A stretch of 64,000 nucleotides of DNA from Lachnoclostridium sp. An118 (GTDB taxonomy: Bacteria; Bacillota; Clostridia; Lachnospirales; Lachnospiraceae). Numbering within the stretch: position 1 is the stretch's first letter; every line of letters begins with the position of its first letter. The notes beneath the pieces are model-generated. The model made no database searches. It was not told the DNA's origin and saw nothing but the letters and a program-made list of their open reading frames with translations. The stretch covers positions 1 to 64,000 of the forward strand of contig NZ_NFLQ01000011.1 in assembly GCF_002160985.1 (NCBI RefSeq). Reading direction: 5' to 3'. This document shows positions 1,090-64,000 of the stretch, piece by piece. The position numbers were made by a program, and so were the translations under genes.

Positions 1090-1144
1090 ATGAACAAAAA
1101 AATATTATTTTTATGCAAAAAGACAATAAAATTTTTGTGAATTT

Positions 1145-1156: not shown

Positions 1157-1162
1157 CAATGC

Positions 1163-1192
1163 TTGACAAAAGTATAGGCTCGGATGTACAAT
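1163..1192 (+). promoter_or_regulatory. Promoter of the importer/dehydrogenase operon
   Basis: TTGACA (1163-1168) is a perfect -35, followed after 18 bases by TACAAT (1187-1192). It lies about 110 bases before the start codon of the binding-protein gene. Confidence 0.7.
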
Positions 1193-1301
1193 GGATTTAA
1201 GAAATTTGCATAGAATATTCCGAAAGCTTCTGGCAGGTAAACGGAAGTCTGAATATTTTGTGCGGAGAGGGAAAATTATTGAAAAAGGGAGGCAAGAAAG
1301 A

Positions 1302-2735
1302 ATGAAGAAAAGACTTATCAGTGCTCTTCTGTGTACAGCTATGGTAGCGTCCATGCTGGCCGGATGCGGCGGAGAAACAGTCAGCAGCGGTGGCGGCTCG
1401 GACGAAGAGGAATACGAGGCTGGCAGTGCAGAGGATTTTGACTGGAAGAACTATGATGGAACAACCATCAATGTTATGTTCAATGAGCATAACTATTCCA
1501 AGGCGGTAATCGAGAAGATCCCCGAGTTCGAGGAGCTGACAGGTATAACGGTTGAATATTCATCCACACCTGAGTCAAACTACTTCGACAAGCTGAACAC
1601 ATCACTGAGCAGCCGTTCCGGTACGCCCGATGTATATATGACCGGCGCTTATCAGGTTTGGGAGTACGCTCCTGCCGGATACATGGAGCCGCTGGATAAC
1701 TACATCAACGACCCGGCCAAGACAGATCCGGATTACAACTTTGATGACTTTATCCCGGCCGTTGTTGACGGACTGAAATGGGATACGGTTCCCGGACATA
1801 AAGTAGGCGAGGGCTCACAGTGGGCACTTCCCATGGGCTGGGAGCTGAACTGTCTGGCTTACAACAAGAACGTGTTTGCAGAGAAGGGACTTGAGGTTCC
1901 AACAACTACAGATGAGCTGCTTGAGACAGCCACTGCCCTGAATGAGTTCGCAGGCTCCGGCTCCTACGGTATTGCTGTACGCGGTACCCGTGAGTGGGCC
2001 ACCATCCATCCCGGATATATGTCCCTGTTCTCAACATGGGGCGCTCAGGACTTTGCGATCGAGGATGGCAAGCTTGTATGTCAGCTCGATTCTGAGGAAG
2101 CCATTGCGATGACAGATTACTGGGTAAATCTGATCAAGGCGGCAGGTCCTCCGCAGTGGACAAACTACACATGGTACGAGGCCAGCGCTGACCTCGGAGC
2201 AGGCAAAGCAGCTATGCTGTTTGACGCTACAAGTGCAGGCTACTTCCAGAACTTTGAAGGCGCATCTCAGGAGTCCGGAAATATTGCATGGTCTACCATT
2301 CCTCTTCCGGAAGGAAAATCTGAGGAAGATATGAAGGCAAACATCTGGATCTGGTCACTGGCTATGAATGCAGACTCCAAGAATAAGGATGCTGCATGGT
2401 ACTTCATCCAGTACTTCACAAGCCCCGAGTATATGCTCTGGTCCGGAACAGAGGGAGCCAGCCCGGATACTCCGCGTACATCTGTAATGGAAAGCGACGA
2501 GTACAAAGCTGTTGTCGGTTCTGCGGACAACTATCTGGAGTCCATCGCGGCTCTGACAGAAAATGCTTCTATCCAGTTTACACCTCAGCCGTACTTCTTC
2601 GAGTGTACAACTACATGGGCTGAGACACTTCAGGACCTTGTGACGAGCGATACCTACTCGTCCACTGAGGAGGCTATGAAGGCTTTGAAGGAGGAGCTGG
2701 ACAGCATTGTATCTGATCTGGAGATATCAGAATAA
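1302..2735 (+). CDS. Carbohydrate ABC transporter substrate-binding lipoprotein (family 1)
   Basis: The 477-residue product begins with a lipoprotein signal (MKKRLISALL...) ending in the lipobox LAGC, with Cys22 the predicted lipidated residue. The mature protein shows the extracellular solute-binding family 1 layout, including TINVMFNEHNYSKAV near the start and GKAAMLFDATSAG in the middle. It should capture substrate outside the membrane for the permeases at 2917 and 3902. The start at 1302 has GGGAGG 8 bases upstream; an upstream in-frame ATG at 1191 would bury the signal peptide and is rejected. The linked dehydrogenase and kinase suggest a polyol or ketose ligand, but the ligand cannot be read from the sequence. 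Confidence 0.93.
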   Translation: MKKRLISALLCTAMVASMLAGCGGETVSSGGGSDEEEYEAGSAEDFDWKNYDGTTINVMFNEHNYSKAVIEKIPEFEELTGITVEYSSTPESNYFDKLNTSLSSRSGTPDVYMTGAYQVWEYAPAGYMEPLDNYINDPAKTDPDYNFDDFIPAVVDGLKWDTVPGHKVGEGSQWALPMGWELNCLAYNKNVFAEKGLEVPTTTDELLETATALNEFAGSGSYGIAVRGTREWATIHPGYMSLFSTWGAQDFAIEDGKLVCQLDSEEAIAMTDYWVNLIKAAGPPQWTNYTWYEASADLGAGKAAMLFDATSAGYFQNFEGASQESGNIAWSTIPLPEGKSEEDMKANIWIWSLAMNADSKNKDAAWYFIQYFTSPEYMLWSGTEGASPDTPRTSVMESDEYKAVVGSADNYLESIAALTENASIQFTPQPYFFECTTTWAETLQDLVTSDTYSSTEEAMKALKEELDSIVSDLEISE

Positions 2736-2818
2736 CAAAAATCATACATTGCCCTGAACGGTACACATCACAGAATAATCTGTATGAGTCGATATATTCT
2801 TATTGAAAAGGGTTAGAG

Positions 2819-2854
2819 TCAAGGAGGGGTTACCTGACCCTCCTTGATTTTTTT
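2819..2854 (+). terminator. Intra-operon terminator/attenuator after the binding-protein gene
   Basis: TCAAGGAGGG (2819-2828) pairs perfectly with CCCTCCTTGA (2838-2847) around a 9-base loop and is followed by a T-run to 2854. It sits between the binding protein and the permeases, so it probably keeps lipoprotein transcript levels above those of the membrane components. Confidence 0.8.
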
Positions 2855-2916
2855 GATAATAGATGTGTTTGTGAAGAGGCAGTGGCTGATCGTAATATAT
2901 GAATGGAGGAACCAGG

Positions 2917-3852
2917 ATGAAAGAGCAGAAAAAAAACAGCGCCGCGGTAAGTGAGCTGAATGTGCTCCCGTTTAAGACAAGGATGCTTCCGTATATGATC
3001 GTGGCGCCTGCGCTGATCATTACGATCGGTATCATGATACCGTTCATAATGGCTATATATTATTCATTGACAAACTATTCGTTCAGACTGCCTACATACA
3101 GCTTTGTCGGCCTGAAGAACTGGATCGAAATCCTGTCATCCACGGATTTCTGGAAGGCTGTGTGGGTTACTCTGAGGTACGCATTTTTCAGCACGGTGAT
3201 CGAGATGGGACTTGGAATGGGCATTGCGATCCTGCTGAACAATCTGAACAACAAATTTTCCAAGATCATGCGTGTTGCGCTGATCTTCCCGCTTATGGTT
3301 GCGCCTGTTACGGCTACTATTGTGTGGCAGCTGATGCTGAACAACTCTGTGGGTATTCTGGAGAAATTCCTGAATATCTTCGGCGTGTATAATTTCCCGT
3401 GGGCGGCCAGCCCGTCGACGGCTATGCTGACAGCGGTCATGATCGATGTCTGGGTGAACACATCCTTCTGTATGCTGCTTGTGCTGGCTGGACTGCAGTC
3501 TCTTCCCAAGTCACCCTTTGAGTCTGCAAAGATTGATGGAGGAAGCGTGCTGTTCAACTTCTGGAACCTGACGCTTCCGATGCTGAAACCCAGCCTTTAC
3601 ATCGCTCTCCTGTTCCGCTTGATGGCGGCTCTGCAGGAATATGCGATCATCTTCGCTCTGACAAAGGGAGGCCCGGGCGACACCCTGATGAACCTGTCGC
3701 TGACCGCCTACCAGAACGGCTTCCAGTTCCAGAAATTCGGATATGCGCTTCCGTACATTCTGGTGCTGTGGGTATTTATCAACATTGTGGCAAAACAGAT
3801 CGTAAAGAGACAGCGTGCGGCTCAGAAGCAGGCGGCAGGTCTGGAGGAATAG
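2917..3852 (+). CDS. Sugar ABC transporter permease (MalF/UgpA type)
   Basis: This 311-residue protein has about six membrane spans, starting with LPYMIVAPALIITIGIMIPF. The cytoplasmic EAA loop that docks on the ATPase is visible as PFESAKIDGGSVLFNFWNLT. It forms the channel with the partner permease at 3902. The ATG at 2917 is chosen because GGAGG lies 8-9 bases before it; an ATG at 2899 overlaps that site. Family 1-type importers normally carry exactly such a permease pair. Confidence 0.93.
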   Translation: MKEQKKNSAAVSELNVLPFKTRMLPYMIVAPALIITIGIMIPFIMAIYYSLTNYSFRLPTYSFVGLKNWIEILSSTDFWKAVWVTLRYAFFSTVIEMGLGMGIAILLNNLNNKFSKIMRVALIFPLMVAPVTATIVWQLMLNNSVGILEKFLNIFGVYNFPWAASPSTAMLTAVMIDVWVNTSFCMLLVLAGLQSLPKSPFESAKIDGGSVLFNFWNLTLPMLKPSLYIALLFRLMAALQEYAIIFALTKGGPGDTLMNLSLTAYQNGFQFQKFGYALPYILVLWVFINIVAKQIVKRQRAAQKQAAGLEE

Positions 3853-3901
3853 CGCGGTGTGCTCTAAACGGTAAATTTCAGATACAGAAAGGATGTTAAG
3901 C

Positions 3902-4726
3902 ATGAATACAGCTTCAAAGAGACTTGGACGTATCGTCCAGAACGGACTGTTGATCATATATGCGATGTTTGCTCTGTTCCCGCTGATCTGGATGCTGATC
4001 CTGTCCATTAAATCGGACGCTGAGATGTACACAACTACATTTATATTCAGCCCGACACTGGACAACTATAAGGCAGTACTGCTTGAGTCGGATTACCTGC
4101 AGTACATGCTGGACAGCCTGATCGTGGCAGGCGGCGCTGTTATCGTTTCAGTTGTAGCCGGTGTCCCGGCAGCCTATGCGCTGGCCAGATATAATTTTAA
4201 GAAGAAGGAAGACATTGCGTTCCAGATCCTCTCGTTCAAATTTGCACCTGAGATCCTGGTAGTGCTTCCGCTGTTCATGATCTACCAGATGCTGGGGATC
4301 TATGACAGCTATTTTGGACTGATCTGGGTATACCAGCTCATTTCCATGCCGCTGCTGATCTGGGTTGTGCGGGGATACTTTGAGGATATCTCTGTGGAGA
4401 TCGAGTATGCGGCACAGGTGGACGGCTACAGCTGGTATCAGATCTTCTTTAAAAACCTTATTCCGCTCATCAAGCCGGGACTCGTGTCCGCGGCGCTGCT
4501 GGCCTTCATCTTCGCATGGAACTGCTTCACATTCCCGCTGATGCTGGGTGGAACAAATGTACAGCCGATCACTGTTGCTATTACAAAGTTCCTTGGAACA
4601 GACAGTGCCCATTACGGACAGCTTGCGGTTGCGGCAACGATTTCGGCTCTGCCGGCGATTATATTCGCCCTCTGTATACAGAAACATCTTGTACGCGGCC
4701 TGAGCTTCGGTGCAGTCAAGGGATAG
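3902..4726 (+). CDS. Sugar ABC transporter permease (MalG/UgpE type)
   Basis: The 274-residue product has six predicted spans and the MalG-type sequence ALFPLIWMLILSIKSD near the start. Its EAA loop reads IEYAAQVDGYSWYQIFFKN. It is the second half of the channel encoded with 2917-3852. The ATG at 3902 is preferred over 3893 because GAAAGGA then stands at a normal distance. It is followed 10 bases later by the first ATPase gene. Confidence 0.93.
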   Translation: MNTASKRLGRIVQNGLLIIYAMFALFPLIWMLILSIKSDAEMYTTTFIFSPTLDNYKAVLLESDYLQYMLDSLIVAGGAVIVSVVAGVPAAYALARYNFKKKEDIAFQILSFKFAPEILVVLPLFMIYQMLGIYDSYFGLIWVYQLISMPLLIWVVRGYFEDISVEIEYAAQVDGYSWYQIFFKNLIPLIKPGLVSAALLAFIFAWNCFTFPLMLGGTNVQPITVAITKFLGTDSAHYGQLAVAATISALPAIIFALCIQKHLVRGLSFGAVKG

Positions 4727-4736
4727 GAGTGAGAAT

Positions 4737-5894
4737 ATGGCAAGAATACAATTGGAAAATGTTACGAAACGGTTTGGGAAAGTGACCGCCCTGGACGGGG
4801 TTTCACTGGATATTAAAGATAAAGAATTCTTTGTATTATTCGGGCCCGCCGGTGCAGGGAAGACGACGATCCTCAACTGTATTGCGGGGATCCAGCTTCC
4901 CGAGGAGGGTGTGGTAAAATTTGACGGTGAAGTTGTGAACCTGGTGGACGCGGCTCACAGGGATACGGCCATGGTCTTCGAGAACTACGCTCTGTATCCG
5001 CAGATGACGGTCTACGACAATATGGCGTCTCCATTGAGGAGCAAGCTCTACAAAAAGGACGAGGAGTTCATCAAGAAGAAAGTGCATGAGGTGGCGGAGA
5101 TGATGAAGATGGAGAATCTTCTGGAGCGTCTCCCCAGCCAGCTGTCCAACGGACAGAAGCAGCGCGTGGCCATGGGCCGTGCCCTTGTGCGTTCTCCCAG
5201 GGTGTATCTGATGGATGAGCCTCTGGCCCATCTGGACGCAAAGCTTCGGAACTCCATGCGTACTGAGCTGAAGTCTATACAGGCCAACTTTGGTACCACC
5301 AGTATCTATGTGACGCATGACTTTATGGAAGCGATGTCTCTTGGGGACAGGATCGCTATCGTTAATAAAGGAAAGATCGTGCAGATCGGCACGAGCGATG
5401 AGATTTACTACATGCCGTGCAACGAGTTTGTTGCTCAGCTTATGGGAGATCCCGAGATCAATATTGTGGGCGGCAGGCTGGAGAAGACGGGAGCCGGCTA
5501 TGCGTTCTCGTTAAATGACGTGGAGGGAAGAACCTATCAGCTCCCGGAGGACAAGGATCTGTTTGCGGCTCTGGATGAGGCGGGGCTTACGGACGTGGAG
5601 CTTGGGATCAGACCGCAGAATGTGAAATATTCGTTCGATCCTGTTGAAGATTATACGAAATGTACTGTTTACAGCTATGAGAGTATCGGAAACAAATCTG
5701 TTATTGTCGCGGAGATCGGGAATCTGCAGCTGCGCATGATCGCGCCCAACGGACTGGCAGTAAAGATCGACCAGGATATCTACGTGAAGCTGGAGCTGGA
5801 TCACGCCATCTTCTTTAACATGGAGACAAAGGAATATGTGAGCAGATACAATGAAGCGGCAGTGAAGGCTCTCGCGGCGGAACAGGAGGGATAA
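4737..5894 (+). CDS. ABC transporter ATPase, first of a pair (UgpC/MsmK-like)
   Basis: The 385-residue protein has Walker A GPAGAGKTT (36-44), signature LSNGQKQRVAMGRAL, Walker B VYLMDEPL and a C-terminal regulatory domain of the MalK/UgpC kind. The usual Gln of the Q-loop is replaced by Glu (MVFENYALYP, Glu82), and the A-loop/P-loop region is slightly unusual (PAGAG rather than PSGCG). It is followed after 4 bases by a second, different ATPase, which suggests a heterodimeric motor. Paired ATPases are known for glycerol-type polyol importers (GlpST). The ATG at 4737 has TAGGAG ahead of it. Confidence 0.9.
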   Translation: MARIQLENVTKRFGKVTALDGVSLDIKDKEFFVLFGPAGAGKTTILNCIAGIQLPEEGVVKFDGEVVNLVDAAHRDTAMVFENYALYPQMTVYDNMASPLRSKLYKKDEEFIKKKVHEVAEMMKMENLLERLPSQLSNGQKQRVAMGRALVRSPRVYLMDEPLAHLDAKLRNSMRTELKSIQANFGTTSIYVTHDFMEAMSLGDRIAIVNKGKIVQIGTSDEIYYMPCNEFVAQLMGDPEINIVGGRLEKTGAGYAFSLNDVEGRTYQLPEDKDLFAALDEAGLTDVELGIRPQNVKYSFDPVEDYTKCTVYSYESIGNKSVIVAEIGNLQLRMIAPNGLAVKIDQDIYVKLELDHAIFFNMETKEYVSRYNEAAVKALAAEQEG

Positions 5895-5898
5895 GTAA

Positions 5899-7020
5899 AT
5901 GGCAGGATTAACCATAAAACATCTTTACAAGCGTTATGACAATAGCGGCAAGAAGAAAAAAGGCGCCAAACTGAATGATTACGCTGTACAGGATCTGAAT
6001 CTTGAATGCGGGCAGGGAGAGTTTATTGCACTGCTCGGACCTTCCGGATGTGGCAAGACGACTACTCTGCGCATGACTGCAGGGCTGGAGACGATCACAA
6101 AGGGTGAGATCTATATCGGTGATACACTGGTAAACGACCTGCACCCGAAGGACAGGCATATCGGCCTGGCCTTTGAGGACTACGCTATGTATCCGCCTCT
6201 CACTGTGTATGACAATATTGCTTTTAATCTGAAGGCAAAGGGTGTTGACAAGGCGGAGATCGACAAGAGAGTGCGGGAGATCGCGCCTCTGATGCAGTGC
6301 GACGATCTGCTGGATAAGATGCCTGTGAAGCTTTCGGGTGGACAGAAGCAGCGTGTCAATATTGCCCGCGCTATTATCCGTCGCCCTGAGCTGCTCCTGA
6401 TGGATGAACCTCTGTCCCATCTGGACGGCAAAGCGCGTCAGGCTATGCGTACAGAGATCAAGCGCCTGATCAACGATATTAAATGTACAACTGTATATGT
6501 AACACATGATCAGCTGGAGGCTATGTCTCTGGCGGATAAGATCGCCATCATCAATTTTGGCGTTCTGCAGCAGTTTGGAACTCCGGCGGAGGTGTATGAT
6601 GATCCGGTCAATGAATTCGTGGCTTCCTTCATCGGCGAGCCGCCCATGAACATTCTGGAGACAACGATCATTGGCGACGGGGATCACTTCCTCTTTACCT
6701 TTGAGGGCAGTGATCTTCAGATCAAGGTTCCGGAGCGCTACAACAATGTAGTCAGCAACGGGTTTAAGTGTAAGATGGGCGTTCGCCCAATGGATGTGCT
6801 TGTGGGCGGCCCTGACTCTCACGGCATGCCGGAGAAGGTGGATACCTTTGAGAACCTGGGAGATGAGAGAAGGATCGGTATCCGGGTAGGAAACACGCTT
6901 ATGATGCTGATCACGGACGATGAGACAAGATATAAAGCGGGCGATATTATCAAGCTGGAGGTTCGGGGTGAGAAGACCCATCTGTTTGATATTGAGACAG
7001 GAAACCGTATCCGCGAGTAG
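5899..7020 (+). CDS. ABC transporter ATPase, second of a pair (UgpC/MsmK-like)
   Basis: This 373-residue ATPase has Walker A GPSGCGKTT (47-55), signature LSGGQKQRVNIARAI and Walker B LLLMDEPL, followed by a MalK-type C-terminal domain. As in its neighbour, the Q-loop Gln is Glu (LAFEDYAMYP, Glu93). The two ATPases are clearly different proteins, so they are likely to work together with the permeases at 2917 and 3902. The linker after the first strand (NSGKKKKGAKLND) is a short lysine-rich insertion. Confidence 0.9.
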   Translation: MAGLTIKHLYKRYDNSGKKKKGAKLNDYAVQDLNLECGQGEFIALLGPSGCGKTTTLRMTAGLETITKGEIYIGDTLVNDLHPKDRHIGLAFEDYAMYPPLTVYDNIAFNLKAKGVDKAEIDKRVREIAPLMQCDDLLDKMPVKLSGGQKQRVNIARAIIRRPELLLMDEPLSHLDGKARQAMRTEIKRLINDIKCTTVYVTHDQLEAMSLADKIAIINFGVLQQFGTPAEVYDDPVNEFVASFIGEPPMNILETTIIGDGDHFLFTFEGSDLQIKVPERYNNVVSNGFKCKMGVRPMDVLVGGPDSHGMPEKVDTFENLGDERRIGIRVGNTLMMLITDDETRYKAGDIIKLEVRGEKTHLFDIETGNRIRE

Positions 7021-7060
7021 GCGGTAAAGTATATAAAAATCAAGTAGGAGGGATAGAACT

Positions 7061-8167
7061 ATGAGCAACTTACCAGAAAAAATGAAAGCGATCGTTGCGT
7101 ACGCGCCTGGTGACTACCGGTTTGAGATGGTAGACACTCCCAGGGCCGGAGAGGGAGAGATGATCCTGAAGGTAGAAGCGTGCGGTATCTGCGCCGGCGA
7201 TACAAAGGCGTTTGCAGGTGCGGCCAGCTTCTGGGGCTTTGACGGACAGCCCAAGTATATCAAGGAGCCCATGATCCCGGGCCATGAGTTTGTTGGAAAG
7301 GTAGTGGAGATCGGACCCAATGTGAAGGGTGGATGGAAGCTGGGCGACAGGATCTGTCCGGAGCAGATCGTTCCCTGCGGAGAGTGTATGTTCTGTAAGA
7401 CAGGGCGCTACTGGATGTGCGAGAAGCATGACCTCTACGGCTTCCAGAACAATGTAAACGGCGGAATGGCTGAGTATGTCAGAGTCACCAAGGAGTCTGT
7501 GCCCTACTGTCACCTTGTTCCGGATGACCTGCCTATTGAGCGAGCCGCTCTGATCGAGCCCTATGGGTGCTCCTTCCACTGTGTGCGCCGCGCGCAGGTT
7601 GCCAACACGGACGTTGTGGTACAGTCCGGTGTGGGCACACTGGGACTTGGCATGGTAGGTGCTCTGAAGCAGGCAAATCCGAAGCTCCTTGTAGTGCTGG
7701 ATATGAATGATGCCCGCCTGGAGAAGGCAAAGGAATTCTGGGGCGACGGGGACAATATCCTGACCATGAACCCGGGTAAAGAGGATGTAGTGGCAAAGAT
7801 CAAAGAGCTGACAGGCGGCTATGGCTGTGATATTTACATAGAGGCCAGCGGACATCCCTCCAGCGTTCAGCAGGGACTGGACTGCATCCGCAAGATGGGA
7901 AGATTTGTGGAGTTCTCTGTATTTGGCGCTCCGGTGACGGTTGACTGGAGTATCATCTCTGACAGAAAGGAGCTGGATCTTCTCGGCGTACATCTGAGTC
8001 CGTACTGCTTTGACACTGTGATCGACTGGATCGGAAACGGCAAGCTTCCGACAGACGGTGTTGTGACTCACAAATTCCCGCTTGAGAAGTGGGAGGAGGG
8101 ATTCCACATTGCGAAGACAGGAGAGAACGGCGCGCTGAAGGTTGTTTTAGTGCCGGACATGGAGTAG
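7061..8167 (+). CDS. Zinc-dependent polyol dehydrogenase, erythritol/L-threitol dehydrogenase-like (MDR family)
   Basis: The 368-residue protein has the catalytic zinc set Cys44 (CGICAGD) and GHE (75-76), the structural-zinc cysteines CGECMFCKTGRYWMC (Cys106, 109, 112, 120) and a nucleotide-binding GVGTLGLG. Whole-protein features (FWG near residue 57, SEQIVPC-like EQIVPCGEC, DLYGF, TVDWSIISD..ELD) recall EltD, which oxidises erythritol and L-threitol to L-erythrulose in Mycobacterium smegmatis. The predicted step here is oxidation of an imported polyol to a ketose for the DhaK/DhaL kinase that follows. The similarity was recalled, not computed, so the exact substrate remains open. Confidence 0.85.
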   Translation: MSNLPEKMKAIVAYAPGDYRFEMVDTPRAGEGEMILKVEACGICAGDTKAFAGAASFWGFDGQPKYIKEPMIPGHEFVGKVVEIGPNVKGGWKLGDRICPEQIVPCGECMFCKTGRYWMCEKHDLYGFQNNVNGGMAEYVRVTKESVPYCHLVPDDLPIERAALIEPYGCSFHCVRRAQVANTDVVVQSGVGTLGLGMVGALKQANPKLLVVLDMNDARLEKAKEFWGDGDNILTMNPGKEDVVAKIKELTGGYGCDIYIEASGHPSSVQQGLDCIRKMGRFVEFSVFGAPVTVDWSIISDRKELDLLGVHLSPYCFDTVIDWIGNGKLPTDGVVTHKFPLEKWEEGFHIAKTGENGALKVVLVPDME

Positions 8168-8190
8168 TCCAGTAAGGAGGAGAAAAATAT

Positions 8191-9186
8191 ATGCAGCGTA
8201 TAATGAATAACCCGGACAATATTGTTGACGAGATGCTGAAGGGTTTTCTGAAGGCACATTCTGATATTGTTGAAGCGACAGATAACGGCCGTGTTGTAAA
8301 GGCGAAGGATATACCTGAGGGAAAGGTAGGAGTTGTCACAGGAGGCGGCTCCGGACACAAGCCGGCCTTTATCGGATATGTGGGAAAAAATATGTGCGAT
8401 GCAGCTGCAGTGGGGGAGATATGCTCCTCCCCCACCGCCGCAGCTTTTCTGGACGCCTGCAAGGTGGCGGACCAGGGCAAGGGAGTTGCGTGTCTGTACG
8501 GTAATTATTCAGGGGATAACATGAACGTGAAGATGGCGGTGAAGATGGCTAAAAAGGCCGGGATCACTGTCAAGACCGTGGTTGCCAATGACGATGTGGC
8601 ATCAGCTCCCAAGGATCAGAGAGAGAAGCGCCGCGGCGTGGCCGGCGAGGTCCTGATGTGGAAGGTGGGCGGCGCCAAAGCGGCCCAGGGCGGAGACCTC
8701 GATGAGGTGATCGCGGCTGCCCAGAAAGCTATTGACAATACCAGATCTGTGGGTATTGGCCTGACACCCTGCACGCTGCCGGCAGTGGGACATCCGAACT
8801 TTGAGATCAAAGATGGAACCATGGAGGTGGGGATCGGACATCACGGAGAGCCCGGGATCGAAGTGTGCGAGCTTGAGACGGCTGACAAGATGGCTAAGAG
8901 GATGGTGGACATTGTAGTGCCGGATTATCCTTTTGTAGAGGGGGATGAGGTAGTAGTCCTCGTGTCCGGGCTTGGTGCTACGCCTGTCATGGAGCTTTAT
9001 GTTCTCTATGATGAGATCGACAGGCTTCTTCAGGAGAAGGGCATTAAGACACACAAGGCATATGTGGGAAATTATTTCACATCTCTGGAAATGATGGGAG
9101 CAACGCTCACCATTATGAAACTGGATGATGAGCTGAAGGAGCTGATCGATATGCCGGCATATTCTATGGGGCTGAAGCAGGTATAG
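8191..9186 (+). CDS. dhaK: Dihydroxyacetone-kinase-family subunit DhaK (likely ketose kinase)
   Basis: At 331 residues this is a full-length DhaK. It carries the substrate loop GGGSGH (51-56) and GIGHHGEPG, in which His218 is the residue that forms the covalent hemiaminal with the ketone substrate. Partner DhaL follows after 14 bases, but no DhaM phosphotransferase subunit is nearby. In tetritol pathways of Mycobacterium, DhaK-type kinases phosphorylate D- or L-erythrulose; with the EltD-like dehydrogenase upstream, an erythrulose-type ketose is a likely substrate. Dihydroxyacetone itself cannot be excluded. Confidence 0.9.
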   Translation: MQRIMNNPDNIVDEMLKGFLKAHSDIVEATDNGRVVKAKDIPEGKVGVVTGGGSGHKPAFIGYVGKNMCDAAAVGEICSSPTAAAFLDACKVADQGKGVACLYGNYSGDNMNVKMAVKMAKKAGITVKTVVANDDVASAPKDQREKRRGVAGEVLMWKVGGAKAAQGGDLDEVIAAAQKAIDNTRSVGIGLTPCTLPAVGHPNFEIKDGTMEVGIGHHGEPGIEVCELETADKMAKRMVDIVVPDYPFVEGDEVVVLVSGLGATPVMELYVLYDEIDRLLQEKGIKTHKAYVGNYFTSLEMMGATLTIMKLDDELKELIDMPAYSMGLKQV

Positions 9187-9200
9187 GAGGCAGAAGTTAT

Positions 9201-9839
9201 ATGGGTACATTAAAAAATGAAGCAGGAAAACCGGTTCTGATGCGCATGGTGAAGGGAATACAGGACAACAAGGCGTATCTGGGAGAGGTGGACGGCCTGA
9301 TCGGCGACGGCGACCACGGTATGAATATGAATAAAGGCTTTACTGTATTTGAGGACAGGTTTAAGGATGAGGATATATCCTTTACCGAGGGGCTGGATGA
9401 GCTTGGCATGATCCTTCTGAATGAGATTGGCGGGTCCATGGGGCCTATTTATGGCACGATATTCATGGATATGGCCGAAGCGGGAGAGGATCTGGACGAG
9501 ATATCGGCGGCGGATTTTGCGGAAATGCTGGAAGCAGGCCTGAACGGCCTTTATGGCATTGTGGATGCCAGAGTGGGAGACAAGACTCTGGTGGATACTC
9601 TGTCGCCTGCAGTGGACGTCATGAAAAAGGCGGGAGAGACCGGACAGGACTTTAAGGAGGCCCTGGCAGAGATGAAGGCGGCTGCGGAAGCGGGCCGGGA
9701 TTCTACAAAGGATATGGTGGCCAAGTATGGGCGCTCCAGCCGGCTTGGTGAGCGCTCCAGAGGAGTGCTCGATGCGGGGGCTACTTCCTGCTGTATCATT
9801 CTGACCGCCATGGCGGACGGGATCATGGAACTGTTGTAA
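9201..9839 (+). CDS. dhaL: Dihydroxyacetone-kinase-family subunit DhaL
   Basis: This 212-residue helical-barrel subunit binds the nucleotide through Mg2+-coordinating aspartates, visible as DGLIGDGDHG (Asp31, 36, 38). The GGSMGPIYG and SSRLGERSRGVLDAGA motifs are also typical. It acts with the DhaK at 8191. It is the last gene of the first operon: a strong terminator lies at 9851-9880. Because DhaM is absent nearby, the phosphoryl donor (ATP or a PTS protein encoded elsewhere) cannot be decided. Confidence 0.9.
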   Translation: MGTLKNEAGKPVLMRMVKGIQDNKAYLGEVDGLIGDGDHGMNMNKGFTVFEDRFKDEDISFTEGLDELGMILLNEIGGSMGPIYGTIFMDMAEAGEDLDEISAADFAEMLEAGLNGLYGIVDARVGDKTLVDTLSPAVDVMKKAGETGQDFKEALAEMKAAAEAGRDSTKDMVAKYGRSSRLGERSRGVLDAGATSCCIILTAMADGIMELL

Positions 9840-57055: not shown

Positions 57056-58132
57056 CTATTCTTCGTCATTTTCCATTAGATCAATAAATTCTTCAAGACT
57101 CATTCCTTCTGGAACTTTTGCAACTTCAACGGAAAGAAAAGGACCATTTTTTCCGGTATCTGCTTCATCATCTTCGGGCTCAGCAGGAGGAAGCAAAAGG
57201 TCATGGTAGTCATTGATGAATTTTGTAAAAGTCAACGGATCCAAGGCTGCATGGTTTCTTTTTAAGAATTTGCTTATCAGAGGAAAAATCCGATATGACT
57301 CAGACAGAGCATCCGTCGGATAATACTCGCAGTCTAATAGACGTGGATAAAGAGCCGCTATTGTGTCCGGTTTATCATCACACAGAAAATATCCACATGC
57401 ATCGTGAGATTCTGTCTCTGCGAGAACAAAGACTCCACCACAGAACATCCCTTCTGGCATATTTGGATTGTAAAGAACATCTCCGGAGTGAAAAGGCAAG
57501 GAAAAATTTTTCTTCATAGAAATAGAAGTTGGATTTGGGCGATAAAGCACACCGGTATACAAAGCCCATTGGTCTTTATCCATATTAACAGCATACATGG
57601 AACCTGGACGCACATCCACAAATGCAAGTCTGTAATCCGGGAGAAATCTGGCAGCCATCAGAAAATCCCCGTTGGAGTTCTCTTTATAAATCGTGATATG
57701 AATGATAACTCCTTCATTTTTTGGAATTATCTGCAAGGCCGATTCCAGGGTAGGAAAACCTTCCCGGATGCTGCGGTATTCCCGCCAGAAACGCTCCCCT
57801 TTTGGAAGAATATGGTATTCTGCATAATAAACGTCAGGCTCATCTGTTTGATAAAATGCACCGATCAGCTCTTCCTGCTGTACGATATACGCTCGCAGGA
57901 AAGTATGTGTGCTGTCTCTGTACTTTTCTTTTAGTCCCATTGTTCGGCTGCCGGTCGGACAGTCGGGAAGAGTTTCTATGATCTCCCGCCATGCAGTACA
58001 TTTTTCCTCTAAACTGATTGTTTCACACTGCCAGGTAAGCCAGGCGGCTTCCAGAGCGGTTGGCTGATATCGGATTTGTTGTAAATGATTACGGACAGTA
58101 TCGGAATTGACAAATTTTAAAAAATCTATCAT
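57056..58132 (-). CDS. Hypothetical protein, paralogue of the N-terminus of 58294-58917
   Basis: The 358-residue protein is not recognised. Its first 60 residues (FLKFVNSDTVRNHLQQIRY, ALEAAWLTWQCETISLEEK, WREIIETLPDCP) align by eye with those of the divergent gene at 58294 (FIQSKSVQEHLEKINY, LEMAYIIWQCPDATLAERF, WQEIIDTMPDTP). The middle contains IIHITIYKENSNGDFLMAAR, and the C-terminus is acidic (PPAEPEDDEAD). The two genes thus form an inverted paralogous pair. AAAGGGG precedes the ATG. Confidence 0.7.
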   Translation of the reverse strand: MIDFLKFVNSDTVRNHLQQIRYQPTALEAAWLTWQCETISLEEKCTAWREIIETLPDCPTGSRTMGLKEKYRDSTHTFLRAYIVQQEELIGAFYQTDEPDVYYAEYHILPKGERFWREYRSIREGFPTLESALQIIPKNEGVIIHITIYKENSNGDFLMAARFLPDYRLAFVDVRPGSMYAVNMDKDQWALYTGVLYRPNPTSISMKKNFSLPFHSGDVLYNPNMPEGMFCGGVFVLAETESHDACGYFLCDDKPDTIAALYPRLLDCEYYPTDALSESYRIFPLISKFLKRNHAALDPLTFTKFINDYHDLLLPPAEPEDDEADTGKNGPFLSVEVAKVPEGMSLEEFIDLMENDEE

Positions 58133-58293
58133 GTATGTTTCCCCTTTCTACTTTAGAATTCCTTTTTACATGGATTACGATACTATCCACAGTGGGTCTT
58201 TTTTGGTCCATCATCCTTGCTATACTTGCCTCAACAAGAAAAAGCAAAGGTAAGTTACCGGGAATTAATAAAACATGAGAGAGGTCATTGCTT

Positions 58294-58989
58294 ATGAATA
58301 TTTATCGTTTTATCCAATCAAAATCCGTTCAGGAACATCTGGAAAAGATCAATTATATATTTTCTTCATTAGAGATGGCATATATCATCTGGCAGTGTCC
58401 GGATGCGACTTTGGCTGAAAGATTTGACGCCTGGCAGGAGATCATCGATACCATGCCAGACACTCCACTTCCTGACAGCATGGAACTGAAAGAAATGGAA
58501 GGTGTTCATGAATTTTTGAGACAATATGTGAAACTGCAGCAAGAGTTCCTTGATGAATTCAATGGGGAAGAGGACGGGGTATATTTTTATAGATATATCG
58601 TCAGAGAACTACCAAATAAGTCGTGGCCTTGGGAGTATATCACAATAGAAAATTTTGATCATGCTTTTCTGATCGATCCATCAAAATATGAAAGCTCTAT
58701 GGTCTCCTTGATTATGGAGATGGTCAATCAAATTTTAATAGAAGTCTTTTCAGCTGTGGCACAATGGGAAACAGAAAAGCGGGCGAAGAGACAGAGAGAG
58801 GGCATCGAAGCCATGAAGAAGCGGGGAGAATGGGAACGGTATGGAAGGCCCCGTAAATTGGAAAAAGAAGCCTTTTTGCAACTCTACGAAAAATATAAGG
58901 ATACACCCGGCTGGTAAGCATCTGTCTGTGAGGAGGCTCATATATCGCTGGCTACATTAAAAAGATATATGAGGGAATACGTGCCATAA
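58294..58989 (+). pseudogene. Chimera: paralogue N-terminus fused to serine-recombinase remnant
   Basis: Codons 1 to about 115 encode the same N-terminal domain as the protein at 57056-58132. From FLIDPSKYESSMVSLIMEMV onwards the text is that of the C-terminal part of a small serine recombinase (VAQWETEKRAKRQREGIEAM, then ERYGRPRKLEK). The frame stops at TAA 58915-58917, but reading on in the same frame gives SVCEEAHISLATLKRYMREY, the expected recombinase helix-turn-helix tail, to 58989. The catalytic Ser domain is absent. This looks like a recombination product followed by a nonsense change. The reading frame ending at 58917 (207 codons) may still be expressed. Confidence 0.6.
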
Positions 58990-59070
58990 TTAATATTGAT
59001 ACTACTGTGTCGTTGGTGTGTAATAATGTAAAAATAAAAATTAGAATTTTATGGATTATATGTAAAATTG

Positions 59071-59099
59071 TTGAAAAATATAATGGAAAGATATATGAT
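59071..59099 (+). promoter_or_regulatory. Promoter of the double-glycine peptide gene
   Basis: TTGAAA (59071-59076) and TATGAT (59094-59099) are 17 bases apart, 38 bases before the peptide's ATG. The surrounding sequence (about 59010-59100) is very AT-rich. Confidence 0.5.
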
Positions 59100-59137
59100 T
59101 ATAGTAACAATAATCCATGTAAAAGGCGGTGCCGATT

Positions 59138-59278
59138 ATGAGAAAACTGTCTAAAAAAGAAGCAAAAAACGTAACGGGCGGAAAGAAGTATCAGTGTAGA
59201 TATTGCAGCTTTTCCACAGACAGTCGTGATGTAATGACTATGCATTATAAGGGGCTGCATAACGTTACCTGGCCGTAA
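59138..59278 (+). CDS. Short double-glycine-leader peptide with C2H2 zinc-finger-like core
   Basis: The 46-residue peptide has a leader MRKLSKKEAKNVTGG ending in the Gly-Gly that C39 proteases cleave after (LSKKE..NVTGG is close to the bacteriocin leader pattern). The predicted 31-residue mature part is basic and contains C-x2-C-x12-H-x4-H (Cys20, Cys23, His36, His41), the spacing of a eukaryotic-type C2H2 zinc finger, with Tyr18 before the first Cys as usual and Phe25/Val32 inside. A weak AGGCGGTG ribosome binding site lies about 9 bases upstream. An attenuator, an ABC exporter and a C39 gene follow. No known bacteriocin family is recognised. Confidence 0.7.
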   Translation: MRKLSKKEAKNVTGGKKYQCRYCSFSTDSRDVMTMHYKGLHNVTWP

Positions 59279-59290
59279 CTTGAGAACTGA

Positions 59291-59320
59291 AGAACCATGG
59301 CCCTTAGCCATGGTTCTTTT
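59291..59320 (+). terminator. Attenuator between the peptide and its exporter genes
   Basis: AGAACCATGGC (59291-59301) pairs perfectly with GCCATGGTTCT (59307-59317) around a 5-base loop, followed by TTTT. Such attenuators commonly raise peptide over transporter expression in bacteriocin-type operons. Confidence 0.8.
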
Positions 59321-59334
59321 GCGTAGGGGGAAAT

Positions 59335-61911
59335 ATGAATATCATTTATAAACTGACATGGCAGTATATGAAAAAAAACCGGAAACGCACAAAGGCGACG
59401 ATTTTGGGAATTATCTGTACCTTGGCCGTCCTGAGCGCCATCTATCTTTTCTCCCAGACCCTGTTAGATGTGATTAGAAGCAATATTATAGAAGAGCAGG
59501 GCGGCTATCATGCTATTTTCCATGAACTGGATCAAGAGCAATATCTAAAGTTAAGCCAGGACAAAAAGATCAAGCATGTTCAATTGGAGAACTGCAGTAG
59601 CCATGATGGGAAAAGTGCTTTGTGCGCCAGAGTGGAACTGAAGAAGGTGAACTGGCTTATTTTTTCGACTACACAGAAGATAGCAGAACAGCTTGGAATG
59701 CGACAGCTTCCGGAAAATGAAAGGACAGAATTGCCATACCGGGTGTCCGGGAAATACGATGTTACATATCATATGGAGCTTTTGCAATATTATGGCATTA
59801 ACCAGGTGGGGAAATTTGGCGTGGGGGTATTAATCAATTTAATTCTCTTTCTCGTAATGCTTATGGGAAGCGTTTTAATTTATAATGCCTATGCCATCTC
59901 GACATTTGAAAAACTAAAGTATTTGGGAACGCTTGGCAGTATTGGGGCCACCGACTTCCAAAAGGCAAGCGTGGTCTATTGTGAAGGCATCCTGGAGGGG
60001 ATAGCAGGCATACCTGTAGGGATTAGTGCAGGGGTGCTGCTGGTAAAAGGCATCATCCTTGCTCTTCGGAAGCTTTTCTTTTATGAAGATACGCTCCTAG
60101 TGACCGTGACGGTAAAGGAGATACTCCTGCTTGTTCTTCTCGGATTTATCATGATCTTTTTCGCCTGTCTGTTTCCGGCGTGGAAAGCTGTCCAGGCGTC
60201 AGGATTAGACCTGGCTGTGCGCCCTTATACCATAGGGATAAAAATCCGCCAGAGGACGAATTTACTCGGAAAACACCGTATATTGGGGACGGTAGGGATG
60301 CTGGCGGCAAAAAACATCTGGATACGCCGGAAAAATTATATATCCAATGGAATACTGATTACCCTTAGCTTTTGTGTGATCCTGGATGGGGCGGCTGCCA
60401 TGCGGGGGATCAACGGGGACTACTACCCAAGGGATGACCGGAGGCGTGAGAAATTACAGCTATGGGCAGAATTATATACAATGGATCAGGATAAGATTGA
60501 AAAATTCTATCAGGATGTAAAAGATCTCCCGGAAGTCACTTCCGTTTCACTGGAACGAAATCTGGATTGGGGCGGGATATTATTACAGCCCGGACAGATC
60601 CAAAAAGACTTGCAGGAATTTGAGATATCGGGTGTAACTGGCTTTGGTGGGCTTTCACGGGAAGAAGAACTGTCACAGATTAAGGGTGTGAAGGATATGC
60701 ACTCAGGAAAATGGATAGAGGGATATTATCTGCGTACGGTGATTGTTGGGTTAGATGACAATACGTTCCAGAATTATGTGGAAGCGGCGGGCTGTCAGAT
60801 CCCGCGTCAGACGGGAGGGGCTTACTCCGTGCTGGTAGAAGATTATGAAGAGGTCCTGACTCCCCAGGGCGTGGATCAGCGGAGCATCCTGGATTTGCGT
60901 CCGGGAGATAGCTTATCCTTTTATTACAGCAGATATGGGGATATGGAAGCCTATACGATAGGAAAATGGTATAGCGAACTTGATGAAATAAGACAGGGAA
61001 ATTTTACGGTAATAGGGACCACGCAGGCCCCCCCGCCGTATCCTTATTTCTCTGGTATGCAAGATAATATAGATGGCTATCAGGAAAGAACGCTGGGTAT
61101 TTGTCACATTTATATGTCTATGAGTGATTTTAAAAAGCTGCTGAAGGACCCTGCTTATCATGAGACTTATGGAGAACATCCAACGGATACGTATGCTTCT
61201 AATTATGAAAGCAAAAGCATTGCAACTTATGTAAAATTCGAAATAAAAGGGTCGAGAAAAAACGATGAGAGCGGCTTATTAAGCCAACTACTGTACGGAG
61301 CAGAGTCATCTTCTCAAATGGAAAAGGAGAAGCGGATAGGAGAAAAAATCAAAAAAATTGCCGAGGATGTAGGGCTTACGCAGGGAGAAGCGGCGGATTA
61401 TAATTACATGCTTGCGGACGGAAGGGTATTGCCGGAAAATGACACCTTTGTTTTTAACAGCCGGCTGCTTTGGCAGAGGAACCAGTACTTCCATTCGGAA
61501 AAATTCTTCCAGCTGATCCTGGGATATGGGCTGGTATTGTTGATCACAATACTGTCTTTAACCAATATTTTCCAGAATATTTCTACATCTATGAGGATGC
61601 GAAGGAAGGAGTTTTCGGCTTATCAGTCCATAGGAATGTCTCCGGCTTCTTTAAGAAATATGCTGCTTTTCGAGGCCGCCATATATGGGGTGAGCGGTTG
61701 CCTAGCAGGCATACCACTAAGCTTTCTTCTCCTGTATCAGGTATACCTTAGTTTTAAAGTAAATTATGCGCTCCGCTGGGAAATGCCGTGGGATATGGTT
61801 CCTGTACAGATCGTGTTTGCAATCCTAATCATTGTCGTACCTGTTGTTTGTGCCATGTCCCAGCTGAAAAATTTAAATATTATAGACTCCATCCGGGATG
61901 AAAATATGTAA
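59335..61911 (+). CDS. FtsX-like ABC transporter permease
   Basis: The 858-residue protein has two FtsX halves: an N-terminal span (residues 22-45), a membrane cluster around residues 160-290 with YNAYAISTFEKLKYLGTLGS, a second anchoring span near 340, a large extracellular domain, and a last three-span cluster with MRRKEFSAYQSIGMSP. This is the MacB/BceB-like layout used for peptide export or antimicrobial-peptide resistance. It is encoded 14 bases after the attenuator and overlaps no gene until the ATPase 13 bases later. Confidence 0.85.
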   Translation: MNIIYKLTWQYMKKNRKRTKATILGIICTLAVLSAIYLFSQTLLDVIRSNIIEEQGGYHAIFHELDQEQYLKLSQDKKIKHVQLENCSSHDGKSALCARVELKKVNWLIFSTTQKIAEQLGMRQLPENERTELPYRVSGKYDVTYHMELLQYYGINQVGKFGVGVLINLILFLVMLMGSVLIYNAYAISTFEKLKYLGTLGSIGATDFQKASVVYCEGILEGIAGIPVGISAGVLLVKGIILALRKLFFYEDTLLVTVTVKEILLLVLLGFIMIFFACLFPAWKAVQASGLDLAVRPYTIGIKIRQRTNLLGKHRILGTVGMLAAKNIWIRRKNYISNGILITLSFCVILDGAAAMRGINGDYYPRDDRRREKLQLWAELYTMDQDKIEKFYQDVKDLPEVTSVSLERNLDWGGILLQPGQIQKDLQEFEISGVTGFGGLSREEELSQIKGVKDMHSGKWIEGYYLRTVIVGLDDNTFQNYVEAAGCQIPRQTGGAYSVLVEDYEEVLTPQGVDQRSILDLRPGDSLSFYYSRYGDMEAYTIGKWYSELDEIRQGNFTVIGTTQAPPPYPYFSGMQDNIDGYQERTLGICHIYMSMSDFKKLLKDPAYHETYGEHPTDTYASNYESKSIATYVKFEIKGSRKNDESGLLSQLLYGAESSSQMEKEKRIGEKIKKIAEDVGLTQGEAADYNYMLADGRVLPENDTFVFNSRLLWQRNQYFHSEKFFQLILGYGLVLLITILSLTNIFQNISTSMRMRRKEFSAYQSIGMSPASLRNMLLFEAAIYGVSGCLAGIPLSFLLLYQVYLSFKVNYALRWEMPWDMVPVQIVFAILIIVVPVVCAMSQLKNLNIIDSIRDENM

Positions 61912-61924
61912 GGGGGCAGATAAG

Positions 61925-62602
61925 ATGGAAGTGTTAAGGACAGAAGAGCTGACAAAAGAATATGGCTTTGGAGAAAATAAAGTCATCGCATTAGACCATG
62001 TATCCTTTTCCGTGGAAAAGGGAGAATTTGTTACGATCCTGGGCCCATCCGGATCCGGGAAGTCCACGCTGCTCCATCTGGTCGGCGGCGTGGACAGACC
62101 GACACACGGGCAGGTCTTTATAGGCGGGCAATCCATTTACAAAATGAAAAACCGGGATCTGACCGTATTCCGCAGACGGGAGATTGGACAGATTTATCAA
62201 TTTTATAATCTCATTCCCGTGCTGGATGTAAAAGAAAACATCAGCCTTCCCGTGCTTTTGGATCATAAGAAGGTGGATCAGGAGGAGCTCCAGAAGCTGT
62301 TGGAGATACTTGGACTGGAAAAGAGGGCCGACCATCTGCCAAACGAACTGTCGGGAGGCCAGCAGCAGAGGGTGGCGATCGGGCGGGCGCTGATCAGCCA
62401 GCCCCAGTTGATTCTGGCTGACGAACCTACTGGAAATCTGGACCAGAAAAACAGTTTGGAAATTATCAATCTTTTTAAAGAATTAAACGAGGTCTACAAA
62501 CAAACTATTTTGCTGATCACCCATGACGAGAAGATTGCCGGAAACAGCAGCCGGACTATTCGAATTGAAGACGGGAAGATCATAGAAGATATAAGGCGGT
62601 GA
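61925..62602 (+). CDS. ABC transporter ATPase (MacB/LolD type) for the FtsX permease
   Basis: The 225-residue ATPase has Walker [11 protein letters not shown]-loop QFYNLIP, signature [15 protein letters not shown] and Walker [18 protein letters not shown] is typical of the LolD/MacB/BceA class that partners FtsX-like permeases. The ATG at 61925 with GGGGGCAG before it is used, as codons upstream belong to the permease end. It is followed 4 bases later by the C39 gene, so the set is translationally linked. Confidence 0.92.
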
Positions 62603-62606
62603 GAAA

Positions 62607-63185
62607 ATGCGGTTTCGTGGAGTCTATCAACATGATACAAGGGATTGTGGAGTCGCATGCCTAGCGACAATTTGCAATTTTTATGGACTAAACGTTCCAT
62701 TATCTTATATTCGAGAGTTAGAAAAGGTGAATATGAACGGATCTAGTATCTACGGAATTTGTAAAGCTGCCGAGATACTTGGAATGGCTGCGGACGCTTA
62801 TCAAGGAGAAATCGAAGAGTTACTTTCTAACGTAAACGAGACAAAGGAAATAGCAGTTCCATTTATAGTGCACACCATAAAAGATGATCTTTATCATTTT
62901 ATGGTCGTAAAAAAGATAAGCACAAAATCAGTATGGCTTTTTGATCCAGATGAAGGAAACATAAAAATAAAATTAGACACATTTGCAAAAATCTGGACAG
63001 GATATTTTATTGCTTTTCAATTGACGCCCCTTTTTAAAAAAGAAAACTTAAAAAAGGGAGCTTATCAAAATTATTTCTTATTTTTTATAAAAATACAGAA
63101 AAGAATTTTTTACTATTTTGGGAACTTCTTTGTTAATTGCGGGAATTACAATAGTAAGTACCCTCATTTTCCAACATATTATTGA
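62607..63185 (+). CDS. C39 peptidase domain of a peptide exporter, cut short by a frameshift
   Basis: The first 150 residues are a complete C39 leader peptidase: HDTRDCGVACLATICNFYG (Cys14), YHFMVVKKI (His97) and FDPDEG (Asp113) form the catalytic triad. In the family, C39 is the N-terminal domain of PCAT exporters that cleave after Gly-Gly and then transport the product. Here the membrane part (after about residue 155) slips into another frame near the T-tract at 63106-63111, so the predicted product ends at 63185 with junk. The peptidase domain itself may still be functional, though no stop follows it directly. Confidence 0.8.
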   Translation: MRFRGVYQHDTRDCGVACLATICNFYGLNVPLSYIRELEKVNMNGSSIYGICKAAEILGMAADAYQGEIEELLSNVNETKEIAVPFIVHTIKDDLYHFMVVKKISTKSVWLFDPDEGNIKIKLDTFAKIWTGYFIAFQLTPLFKKENLKKGAYQNYFLFFIKIQKRIFYYFGNFFVNCGNYNSKYPHFPTYY

Positions 63186-63270
63186 CCATTTTATGATGCA
63201 CCCGAATTATGAATTCATGAGGGAAGTGAATACTATTTTCGCTATCATAATAGGTCTTTATATCTTAAGG
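63112..63270 (+). pseudogene. Remnant of the C39 exporter's membrane domain, cut at the Mob junction
   Basis: In the +1 frame, GTSLLIAGITIVSTLIFQHI and IFAIIIGLYILRF look like the first two membrane spans of a peptidase-containing ABC transporter. This continues the product of 62607 after a one-base frame change. At about 63270 the similarity ends and mobilisation-gene sequence (minus strand) begins, so most of the transporter, including its ATPase domain, is missing. Confidence 0.7.
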
Positions 63271-63609
63271 TTCTTCTCTGAGTGTGAACAATTCCGCGAT
63301 GCAGTGACGGATTTCATCTTCCATAGCCAGCGAACGTTCCCCGCCCGTATTGAAGTACCGTGCGATCTGATTCAGGTTCACGCCGATCTTTCCATATGCC
63401 CCCAACAAGCTTCGCAGTTCTTCCATATCGGCAACCACTTCTACCCGATGCACGATCTCCTTGTCCACCAGAAGTTTCCGCAGGCATTCGGATCTGGACA
63501 CTCCCAGGATCTCTGCTTTCCTGTCCAGAAGTTCCAGTTCAATATCCGACAGCCGGACTCCGACAAAATGCGGATGGTTCAGTTCCCGTTCCATTCTCTT
63601 TTTTCTCAT
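63265..63609 (-). CDS. MobC-like plasmid mobilisation protein, C-terminus truncated
   Basis: The 114-residue product starts MRKKRMERELNHPHFVGVRL, and SLLGAYGKIGVNLNQIARYF plus LAMEDEIRHCIAELF match MobC relaxosome proteins. The end (TLREEP, stop at 63265-63267) lies within or next to the truncated exporter gene, so the MobC tail has probably been replaced by the junction. AAGGAGGAG precedes the ATG. The stop codon of an upstream minus-strand frame (GTG at 63794) overlaps this ATG as ATGA. MobC genes accompany relaxases on plasmids and integrative elements. Confidence 0.8.
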   Translation of the reverse strand: MRKKRMERELNHPHFVGVRLSDIELELLDRKAEILGVSRSECLRKLLVDKEIVHRVEVVADMEELRSLLGAYGKIGVNLNQIARYFNTGGERSLAMEDEIRHCIAELFTLREEP

Positions 63610-64000
63610 GGCTTCTCCTCCTTTCTTTCTGTTACTTCAGCAACACCACAAATAGGAGAACCGGCAGCCCTGCCGGAATCTTCCTTTTGTGCTGCGTCCC
63701 ACTTTCCAGTGGACGCCAATATCTGCCAGATCGGCAGATCATCGAGGGTATGGGGAGGCGAAATCCCAAGCAAGAGCCCTACACAGGAAAACACAATAGT
63801 GTATTACGGGGTGGATCTTGCCCTAGGAAAAAACACTTCCCTCTACTTCTCAAAAAGGCGTAAGGTACTTTTACAAGGGAAAATCAAAAATTAATTTTTC
63901 TGAAAAGTTAAAGCACCAACCTTCTGGTGAGCGTGAAAATCTTCTAAAATAAAAACCCTCTCACTTAACCCAACGGACAGAGAGGGAAATACAATGGTCT
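63610..64000. other. Right edge: no certain gene
   Basis: On the minus strand a frame of about 62 codons (63606-63794, GTG start) runs into mobC with an ATGA overlap, a sign of coupling, but its sequence is not protein-like and matches nothing I recognise. At 63956-63986, CCCTCTC and GAGAGGG can pair. A GAGGG site and ATG at 63994 may start a plus-strand gene that leaves the window. Confidence 0.3.

Follow-up and report, generated by a model that had tools for sequence, protein, structure and literature searches.

A double-glycine-leader peptide with a zinc-finger-like core, linked to a C39-ABC exporter gene, in Lachnoclostridium sp. An118

The window analyzed here, a stretch of 64,000 nucleotides from Lachnoclostridium sp. 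An118 (contig NZ_NFLQ01000011.1), contains a 46-codon ORF (59138-59278, + strand; translation MRKLSKKEAKNVTGGKKYQCRYCSFSTDSRDVMTMHYKGLHNVTWP) that, judged from its sequence and that of its relatives, is a genuine and conserved precursor of the exported type, its core resembling a zinc finger. With somewhat better than even confidence, we read its product as an unmodified, metal-folded, C2H2-like miniprotein exported by a C39-ABC transporter (PCAT), and probably as a bacteriocin against which an FtsX/LolD pair protects the producer. Translation bore out the original prediction of a 46-residue gene with a Gly-Gly leader and a 31-residue core: the precursor divides into a 15-residue leader with GG at positions 14-15 (MRKLSKKEAKNVTGG) and the core KKYQCRYCSFSTDSRDVMTMHYKGLHNVTWP. 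The ligand spacing of the core, C20-x2-C23-x12-H36-x4-H41, is the classical C2H2 spacing that had been claimed for it. Among 400,000 shuffles of the core's letters, exactly this spacing arose at a frequency of 4e-5 and any classical C2H2 spacing at 4.2e-4. A Tyr lies at -2 from the first Cys and a Phe at +2 from the second, which we take to be the shifted-aromatic arrangement of ZFY-type fingers. The C39 leader consensus quoted in PMC6363468 is L(-12), E(-8), L(-7), GG(-2,-1); the leader agrees with it at L4 (-12), E8 (-8) and G14-G15 and has A9 rather than Leu at -7, so that two of the three recognition positions before the GG (Leu -12 and Glu -8) are present. Coordinates of the locus are given in Table 1.

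Table 1. Features of the peptide locus in the window.
Feature	Position	Strand	Evidence
Block homologous to L008:7893-12138, 97.2% identity	59041..63272	+	blastn, window vs L008
Candidate sigma-70 promoter, TTGAAA-17-TATGAT	59071..59099	+	consensus scan
Shine-Dalgarno-like AAGGCGGTG	59123..59131	+	sequence
Double-glycine leader MRKLSKKEAKNVTGG, 15 residues	59138..59182	+	translation; fits C39 leader consensus (PMC6363468)
31-residue core C-x2-C-x12-H-x4-H plus stop	59183..59278	+	translation, Pfam, PDB profile, alignment
13-bp hairpin, attenuator-like, between peptide and FtsX	59289..59319	+	RNA fold prediction, z -4.07
858-aa permease of the FtsX family with two FtsX domain matches	59335..61911	+	Pfam FtsX 5.1e-23
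LolD/MacB-type ATPase, frame open from 61898	61925..62602	+	NCBIfam LolD 5.5e-72, under cut-off
Front part of PCAT with intact C39 domain; reading frame lost directly behind it	62607..63185	+	Peptidase_C39 6.6e-37; alignment with L008 712-aa PCAT
PCAT membrane-domain remnant, other frame, abrupt end	63118..63272	+	ABC_membrane E=0.0012, under cut-off
MobC/NikA-like mobilization gene abutting broken end	63265..63609	-	NikA-like 5.7e-11, MobC 6.4e-6

A pattern scan of 84,980 species (one genome each), which detects close relatives only, returned 77 candidate stretches, and the only true relative among them was a locus of Eubacterium sp. ER2 (L008). Its peptide is 80% identical to that of the window over 46 residues, with the GG and all four ligands kept, and it carries the same FtsX and LolD genes plus an intact 712-aa PCAT. 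The peptide is present in two of the 11 genomes of the window's genus, the window's own included; as one genome of this genus and L008's genome have it at identical contig coordinates, Eubacterium sp. ER2 is most likely a congener of the window's organism. The block shared with L008 begins just upstream of the candidate promoter and takes in the promoter region, peptide, hairpin, FtsX, LolD and the front of PCAT. Identity varies along it: the peptide is at about 85%, the beginning of FtsX at 89-90%, the remainder of FtsX together with LolD at 98-100% (LolD without a single difference) and PCAT at 90-97%, a pattern that suggests recombination. For the peptide pair, dN/dS was 0.38 (NG86) or 0.74 (YN00) from 18 differences, which would mean at most weak constraint. 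The L008 locus adjoins genes for a MobL relaxase, ParA and ParB and a piece of a resolvase gene, and such a resolvase piece also lies upstream of the window's peptide copy; from these neighbors, the cassette probably travels. In the window it forms the back part of a chimeric ORF (58288-58917), where Pfam detects part of a serine resolvase (E=1.5e-4); this piece also precedes the L008 peptide. The front of the ORF is similar, by eye, to the beginning of the gene at 57056-58132 (-).

The C39 domain of the L008 PCAT was used to query 397 genomes of the family, giving a match in 39 of them and 51 matches listed. We then screened 53 loci for ORFs with GG leaders (49 of the 50 regions outside the window's genome, together with L008 and three plasmid loci). 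In one of these, L104 (genome G276, from another genus), the ORF before PCAT reads MRKMTETAMRETNGG followed by the 39-residue core GGLWKCNICSHYSGNKYLIKLHCKRYHGVSTCYRWVEIY, again with C-x2-C-x12-H-x4-H. This peptide is 28% identical to that of the window and has the GG and the four Cys/His ligands at the same spacing; residues M1, K3, G14, G15, C20, C23, S24, H36, K38, H41 and W45 are invariant in the window, L008 and L104. When the letters of the L104 peptide were shuffled, the exact spacing arose at a frequency of 6.7e-4; with about 50 peptides examined, and leaving the Pfam match aside, the chance of finding it amounts to a few percent. The L104 PCAT is 34.5% identical to that of L008, and the locus, consisting of PCAT and two peptides, lies between CTP synthase and S18/SSB genes, with no detectable FtsX permease. 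Homologues are found beside the kinds of exporter that the original prediction had pointed to, L008 beside FtsX, LolD and PCAT and L104 beside a different PCAT, and neither relative has lost any of the Cys/His ligands.

In all, three C2H2 members were found, the window and L008 being close relatives, and each fits the classical pattern C-x2-4-C-x12-H-x3-5-H. No further real member was found in the 397 family genomes, 392 genomes of the order or 51 relatives of G276, nor any C2H2 peptide in plasmids, phages or viral contigs, by searches that are weak for so short a peptide. Among the 51 genomes around G276, it is the sole carrier of an L104-type peptide, and the short flanks inspected at the PCAT loci of two of its genus-mates (G716, G717) hold no comparable peptide. 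Peptide matches in G137, G353 and G276:C56 and 14 order-level matches were rejected on inspection, as were four weak matches among the G276 relatives in which the ligands were absent; the stray matches were HNH endonucleases, frames lying within other proteins, frames interrupted by stops, or short frames that lacked a start.

The likeness of the core to a zinc finger was also seen in profile searches. The best Pfam match of the window peptide is zf-H2C2_5 (E=3.3e-4, 20.6 bits, cut-off 27), and C2H2 families likewise matched the peptides of L008 (best E=6.3e-5, 23.2 bits, cut-off 27) and L104 (E=4.5e-4, 20.4 bits, cut-off 29), all three scores lying below the curated cut-offs. Among 49 GG peptides scanned, a set that does not include the window peptide (scanned separately against Pfam), only those of L008 and L104 matched C2H2 families at E<=0.01. 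With a profile built from the peptides of the window and L008, 13 PDB sequences were found at E<=0.1, all of them zinc-finger proteins (best 5.7e-4). In a six-frame scan of 299 family genomes with PF13909, matches at E<=0.1 occurred in 45 genomes, none above the cut-off; the window peptide ranked first and, among the matches listed, was alone in covering positions 1-25 of the 26 in the model. Thirteen loci of the other matches were inspected and rejected, a GG leader being found in none. NCBIfam searches gave a leader model as the best match of the window peptide (18 bits, cut-off 23.5) and no match at E<=0.01 for that of L008; models of the known class II families (Bacteriocin_IIc, lactobin/cerein, lactococcin) were not matched by the peptide.

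Structure prediction gave two different pictures. The precursor was modeled by AlphaFold from two sequences as a leader helix followed by strand-strand-helix, with a pLDDT of 71.2 for the best model and 51-61 for the remaining four. When this best model was searched with Foldseek, 49 of the 50 matches listed had zinc-finger titles (E 0.2-1.7), and re-scoring with VIA-align again gave zinc-finger titles, at Z <=3.6; among these was the H-x4-H finger 1paa, at 1.7 Å over 30 residues. The mature core alone, modeled from one sequence, was instead predicted to be all-beta (pLDDT 80.7 versus 71.2 for the precursor), and its fold search gave no meaningful match, with zinc-finger titles in 0 of the 50 matches listed. 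The beta-beta-alpha fold is thus present in the precursor model and absent from the mature-core model, each of which is based on one or two sequences only. The core is probably metal-folded, and zinc is the most likely metal.

The C39 leader peptidase of the original prediction is there as a domain but not as a standalone protease, since it forms the front part of a frameshifted PCAT. The standard parts for export had also been thought present; the window's genome lacks a complete system, its PCAT being broken and its only other C39 match being a weak one in a 310-residue frame. Homology to the intact L008 PCAT stops at 63272, and the rest of the gene did not turn up anywhere else in the assembly, where matches outside the window's pieces are at most 36% identical to the L008 PCAT. 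The peptide is thus linked to a whole C39-ABC exporter through L008, the window keeping the C39 domain and a remnant only. With PCAT broken, the window's copy of the system is probably decaying or defunct. The break at 63272 could possibly be an assembly join, but the frameshift just after the C39 domain argues for decay instead. The region after the break is probably an integrated mobilizable element, and a DNA search with the mobilization region gave no match in plasmids. In this region (63265-64000; L009:268-2641), the MobC/NikA-like gene is followed by genes that appear, by eye, to encode a membrane protein and a replication initiator.

Between the peptide and PCAT, both the window and L008 have the FtsX and LolD genes. 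A permease and a LolD-like ATPase accompany PCAT in locus L025 too, and in locus L111 a Cys/His peptide and its PCAT are flanked by two permeases (847 and 837 residues) and a LolD-like ATPase. The original prediction had proposed an FtsX/LolD-type exporter; the genes are supported by Pfam and NCBIfam, and the export role is doubtful, because PCAT is the usual exporter and L104 has a PCAT and no detectable FtsX, so that FtsX/LolD need not do the exporting. As PCAT is the constant part across loci, the pair is better read as self-protection of the producer, which is its most likely role. FtsX was not matched in plasmids, nor was FtsX or PCAT in viral contigs, and two FtsX relatives (G317, G085) were set aside as having no PCAT among the ORFs listed. 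In L025 (6892-12660, - strand), PCAT, FtsX and LolD are followed by a 167-residue lipoprotein-like protein with a CxxC and no Pfam match, and genes for a BlaI-like repressor and an M56-like protease (labels by eye) diverge; the only ORF with a ribosome-binding site before its PCAT, 21 codons long, was rejected for having no C/H core. The L111 locus (73-9416) also encodes a protein with a weak DUF6709 match.

Signals around the peptide gene were compared with those of L008. The consensus scan that gave the candidate promoter found three sites against 2.7 expected by chance, making it weak and no better than chance; in the same place, L008 has, by eye, TTGAAA-17-TACAAT. The ribosome-binding stretch of L008 is AAGGAGGTG, from which that of the window departs at one central base, so that the window's Shine-Dalgarno is probably the weaker. 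As for the attenuator proposed earlier, the hairpin stands as a predicted RNA fold and is kept in L008 (z -4.96), whereas a generic terminator scan found no terminator there. No Rfam family was found in 57500-64000.

These parts suggest how an intact locus might work. The C39 domain of PCAT would cleave the precursor after the GG, and the transporter would secrete the 31-residue core unmodified; none of the neighboring genes scanned in the window, L008 and L104 was recognized as encoding a tailoring enzyme (other ORFs were judged by eye), in keeping with the earlier remark that no cysteine-modifying enzyme is encoded nearby. The core would then fold as a C2H2 finger round one metal ion, likeliest zinc, bound by Cys20, Cys23, His36 and His41. 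The hairpin would end most transcripts after the peptide and let a few continue into FtsX, LolD and PCAT, yielding much peptide and little transporter. FtsX/LolD would guard the producer, whether by driving the peptide out or by shielding its target. If the pair is protective, the peptide would be a bacteriocin, and this we infer to be its most likely role.

The same locus could be read in other ways. The core might be a PCAT-exported class II peptide that holds no metal, its CxxC forming a disulfide or staying reduced and its His residues serving charge or membrane binding. We consider this unlikely. In its favor, models of plain class II bacteriocins are matched by many of the GG peptides found near related PCATs, and the predicted structure of the mature core is no finger. 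Against it, the window core has just two Cys, two residues apart, both His are equally conserved, and the full C2H2 spacing recurs in the distant L104 peptide beside a different PCAT. Less probable still is a secreted signal or metal-sensing pheromone that does not kill, with FtsX/LolD serving sensing or uptake. PCATs export quorum signals too, according to PMC6363468, and a related locus (L107) lies beside genes for AgrB, a GHKL kinase and, by eye, response regulators. However, neither a kinase nor a response regulator was recognized beside the window peptide or among the L008 neighbors scanned, and the nearest regulator-like gene in the window, encoding a WYL-domain protein, is 2.3 kb upstream.

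We regard as very improbable a cytoplasmic zinc-finger regulator unrelated to export, in which the GG would be coincidental. C2H2 fingers usually bind nucleic acid, but a lone finger of 31 residues is rarely enough to bind DNA. Ros/MucR does show that bacterial C2H2 fingers exist (PMC9779718), but the leader fits C39 recognition and precedes transporter genes, and all three peptides retain the GG. The export of a metal-folded, C2H2-like miniprotein remains our preferred reading.

Fingers of the classical C2H2 type are seen as mainly eukaryotic and intracellular. The eukaryotic fingers of ZFAT, ZHX1 and ZNF462, and the even-finger type of ZFY with its shifted aromatic, share with the window the spacing C-x2-C-x12-H-x4-H, the Tyr at -2 of the first Cys and an aromatic residue at +2 of the second, whereas the window peptide is bacterial, a single finger behind an export leader, and scores below the family cut-offs. 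The bacterial C2H2-type finger of Ros/MucR belongs to intracellular regulators (PMC9779718), unlike the 46-residue exported-type precursor of the window. With the double-glycine peptides of PCAT/AMS systems (class II bacteriocins and pheromones; PMC6363468), the window shares L(-12), E(-8) and GG(-2,-1) in the leader and a precursor gene before transporter genes, the C39-ABC exporter being intact in L008. It differs from them in its 15-residue leader, in the FtsX/LolD pair between peptide and PCAT, and in a core that is Cys/His-rich with C2H2 spacing where theirs is a hydrophobic, glycine-rich helix. LahT/LahA of Lachnospiraceae C6A11 (PMC6363468) likewise combines a C39-ABC exporter with diverse GG precursors in a Lachnospiraceae cluster, but with Nif11-type leaders in a lanthipeptide operon, in contrast to the lack of a tailoring enzyme among the neighbors scanned here. 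Among the papers listed by literature searches, none described such a peptide in its title or abstract opening, an absence that is weak because subscription papers were mostly out of reach; 'zinc' does not occur in the main text of PMC13289728. If bacteria do export lone fingers, the range of cargo of C39 exporters would be wider and the activity of a secreted peptide would be tied to metal supply. Such a bacteriocin-like class would be overlooked by family-based mining, having short genes, no tailoring enzyme and no family model matched above its cut-off. For a peptide of 31 residues, metal binding, fold and activity are directly accessible by synthesis.

Cys and His residues were counted more widely in 51 GG peptides from 32 loci, with L104 counted twice. 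The leader pattern and ribosome-site filter were of our own definition, and the count dropped leaders outside 14-26 residues, those with no exact GG (L115's among them) and cores shorter than 15 residues. Cores with at least 10% Cys+His made up 7 of the 17 with leaders of 14-15 residues versus 0 of the 34 with longer leaders (Fisher p 1.7e-4; Mann-Whitney p 6e-4), a contrast between related sequences with a threshold picked after the data were seen. In a PCAT tree that left out five short PCAT fragments among 49 rows, loci with a short-leader peptide next to PCAT clustered without forming one clade (4 changes versus 9.2 when shuffled, none of 500 shuffles going as low; the tree carries long-branch warnings). 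Taking short and long leaders together, 21 of 49 GG peptides match the lactobin/cerein model TIGR03949 and 10 match Bacteriocin_IIc. The plasmid PCAT relatives (L121-L123) were set aside, their peptides being ordinary and bacteriocin-like.

It is conceivable, at a little short of an even chance, that the C39-ABC exporters of Lachnospiraceae secrete an entire class of miniproteins that are unmodified and folded by metal, with a metal-dependent function in killing, signaling or metal competition. Under this tentative proposal, the C2H2 peptides of the window, L008 and L104 would represent one fold and those of L105 and L115 a second family, the cores of L103 and L111 would resemble, by eye, other small zinc folds, and some cores would start with X-X-His after cleavage, giving a copper/nickel-binding end.

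Several features of individual loci were noted in the course of this survey. The L107 locus (5699-8354, +), with its AgrB and kinase genes, pairs PCAT with a short-leader GG peptide that is poor in Cys and His, which suggests quorum control. The L103 peptide has a weak zinc-ribbon match (RNA polymerase subunit P; E=5.6e-4, with 19.4 bits where the cut-off is 103) that spans residues 5-25 and hence partly the leader. Before related PCATs, L105 (9436-9645, -) and L115 (7418-7618 and 7716-7934, +) encode a second Cys/His family of three peptides in two genomes, with the pattern Y-H-W-x-C ... H-x5-6-H ... C-x3-C; about one third of residues are identical, Y-H-W-x-C, S, Y, H, Y, H, C, C and K are kept, and the L115 leaders have no exact GG. 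A cut after residue 15 would give an N-terminal X-X-His, presumably the amino-terminal copper/nickel motif, in L104:9539-9733 (-) as AAH and in L105:9436-9645 (-) as GTH, and L115:7716-7934 (+) would begin with AAH if cut at the same place.
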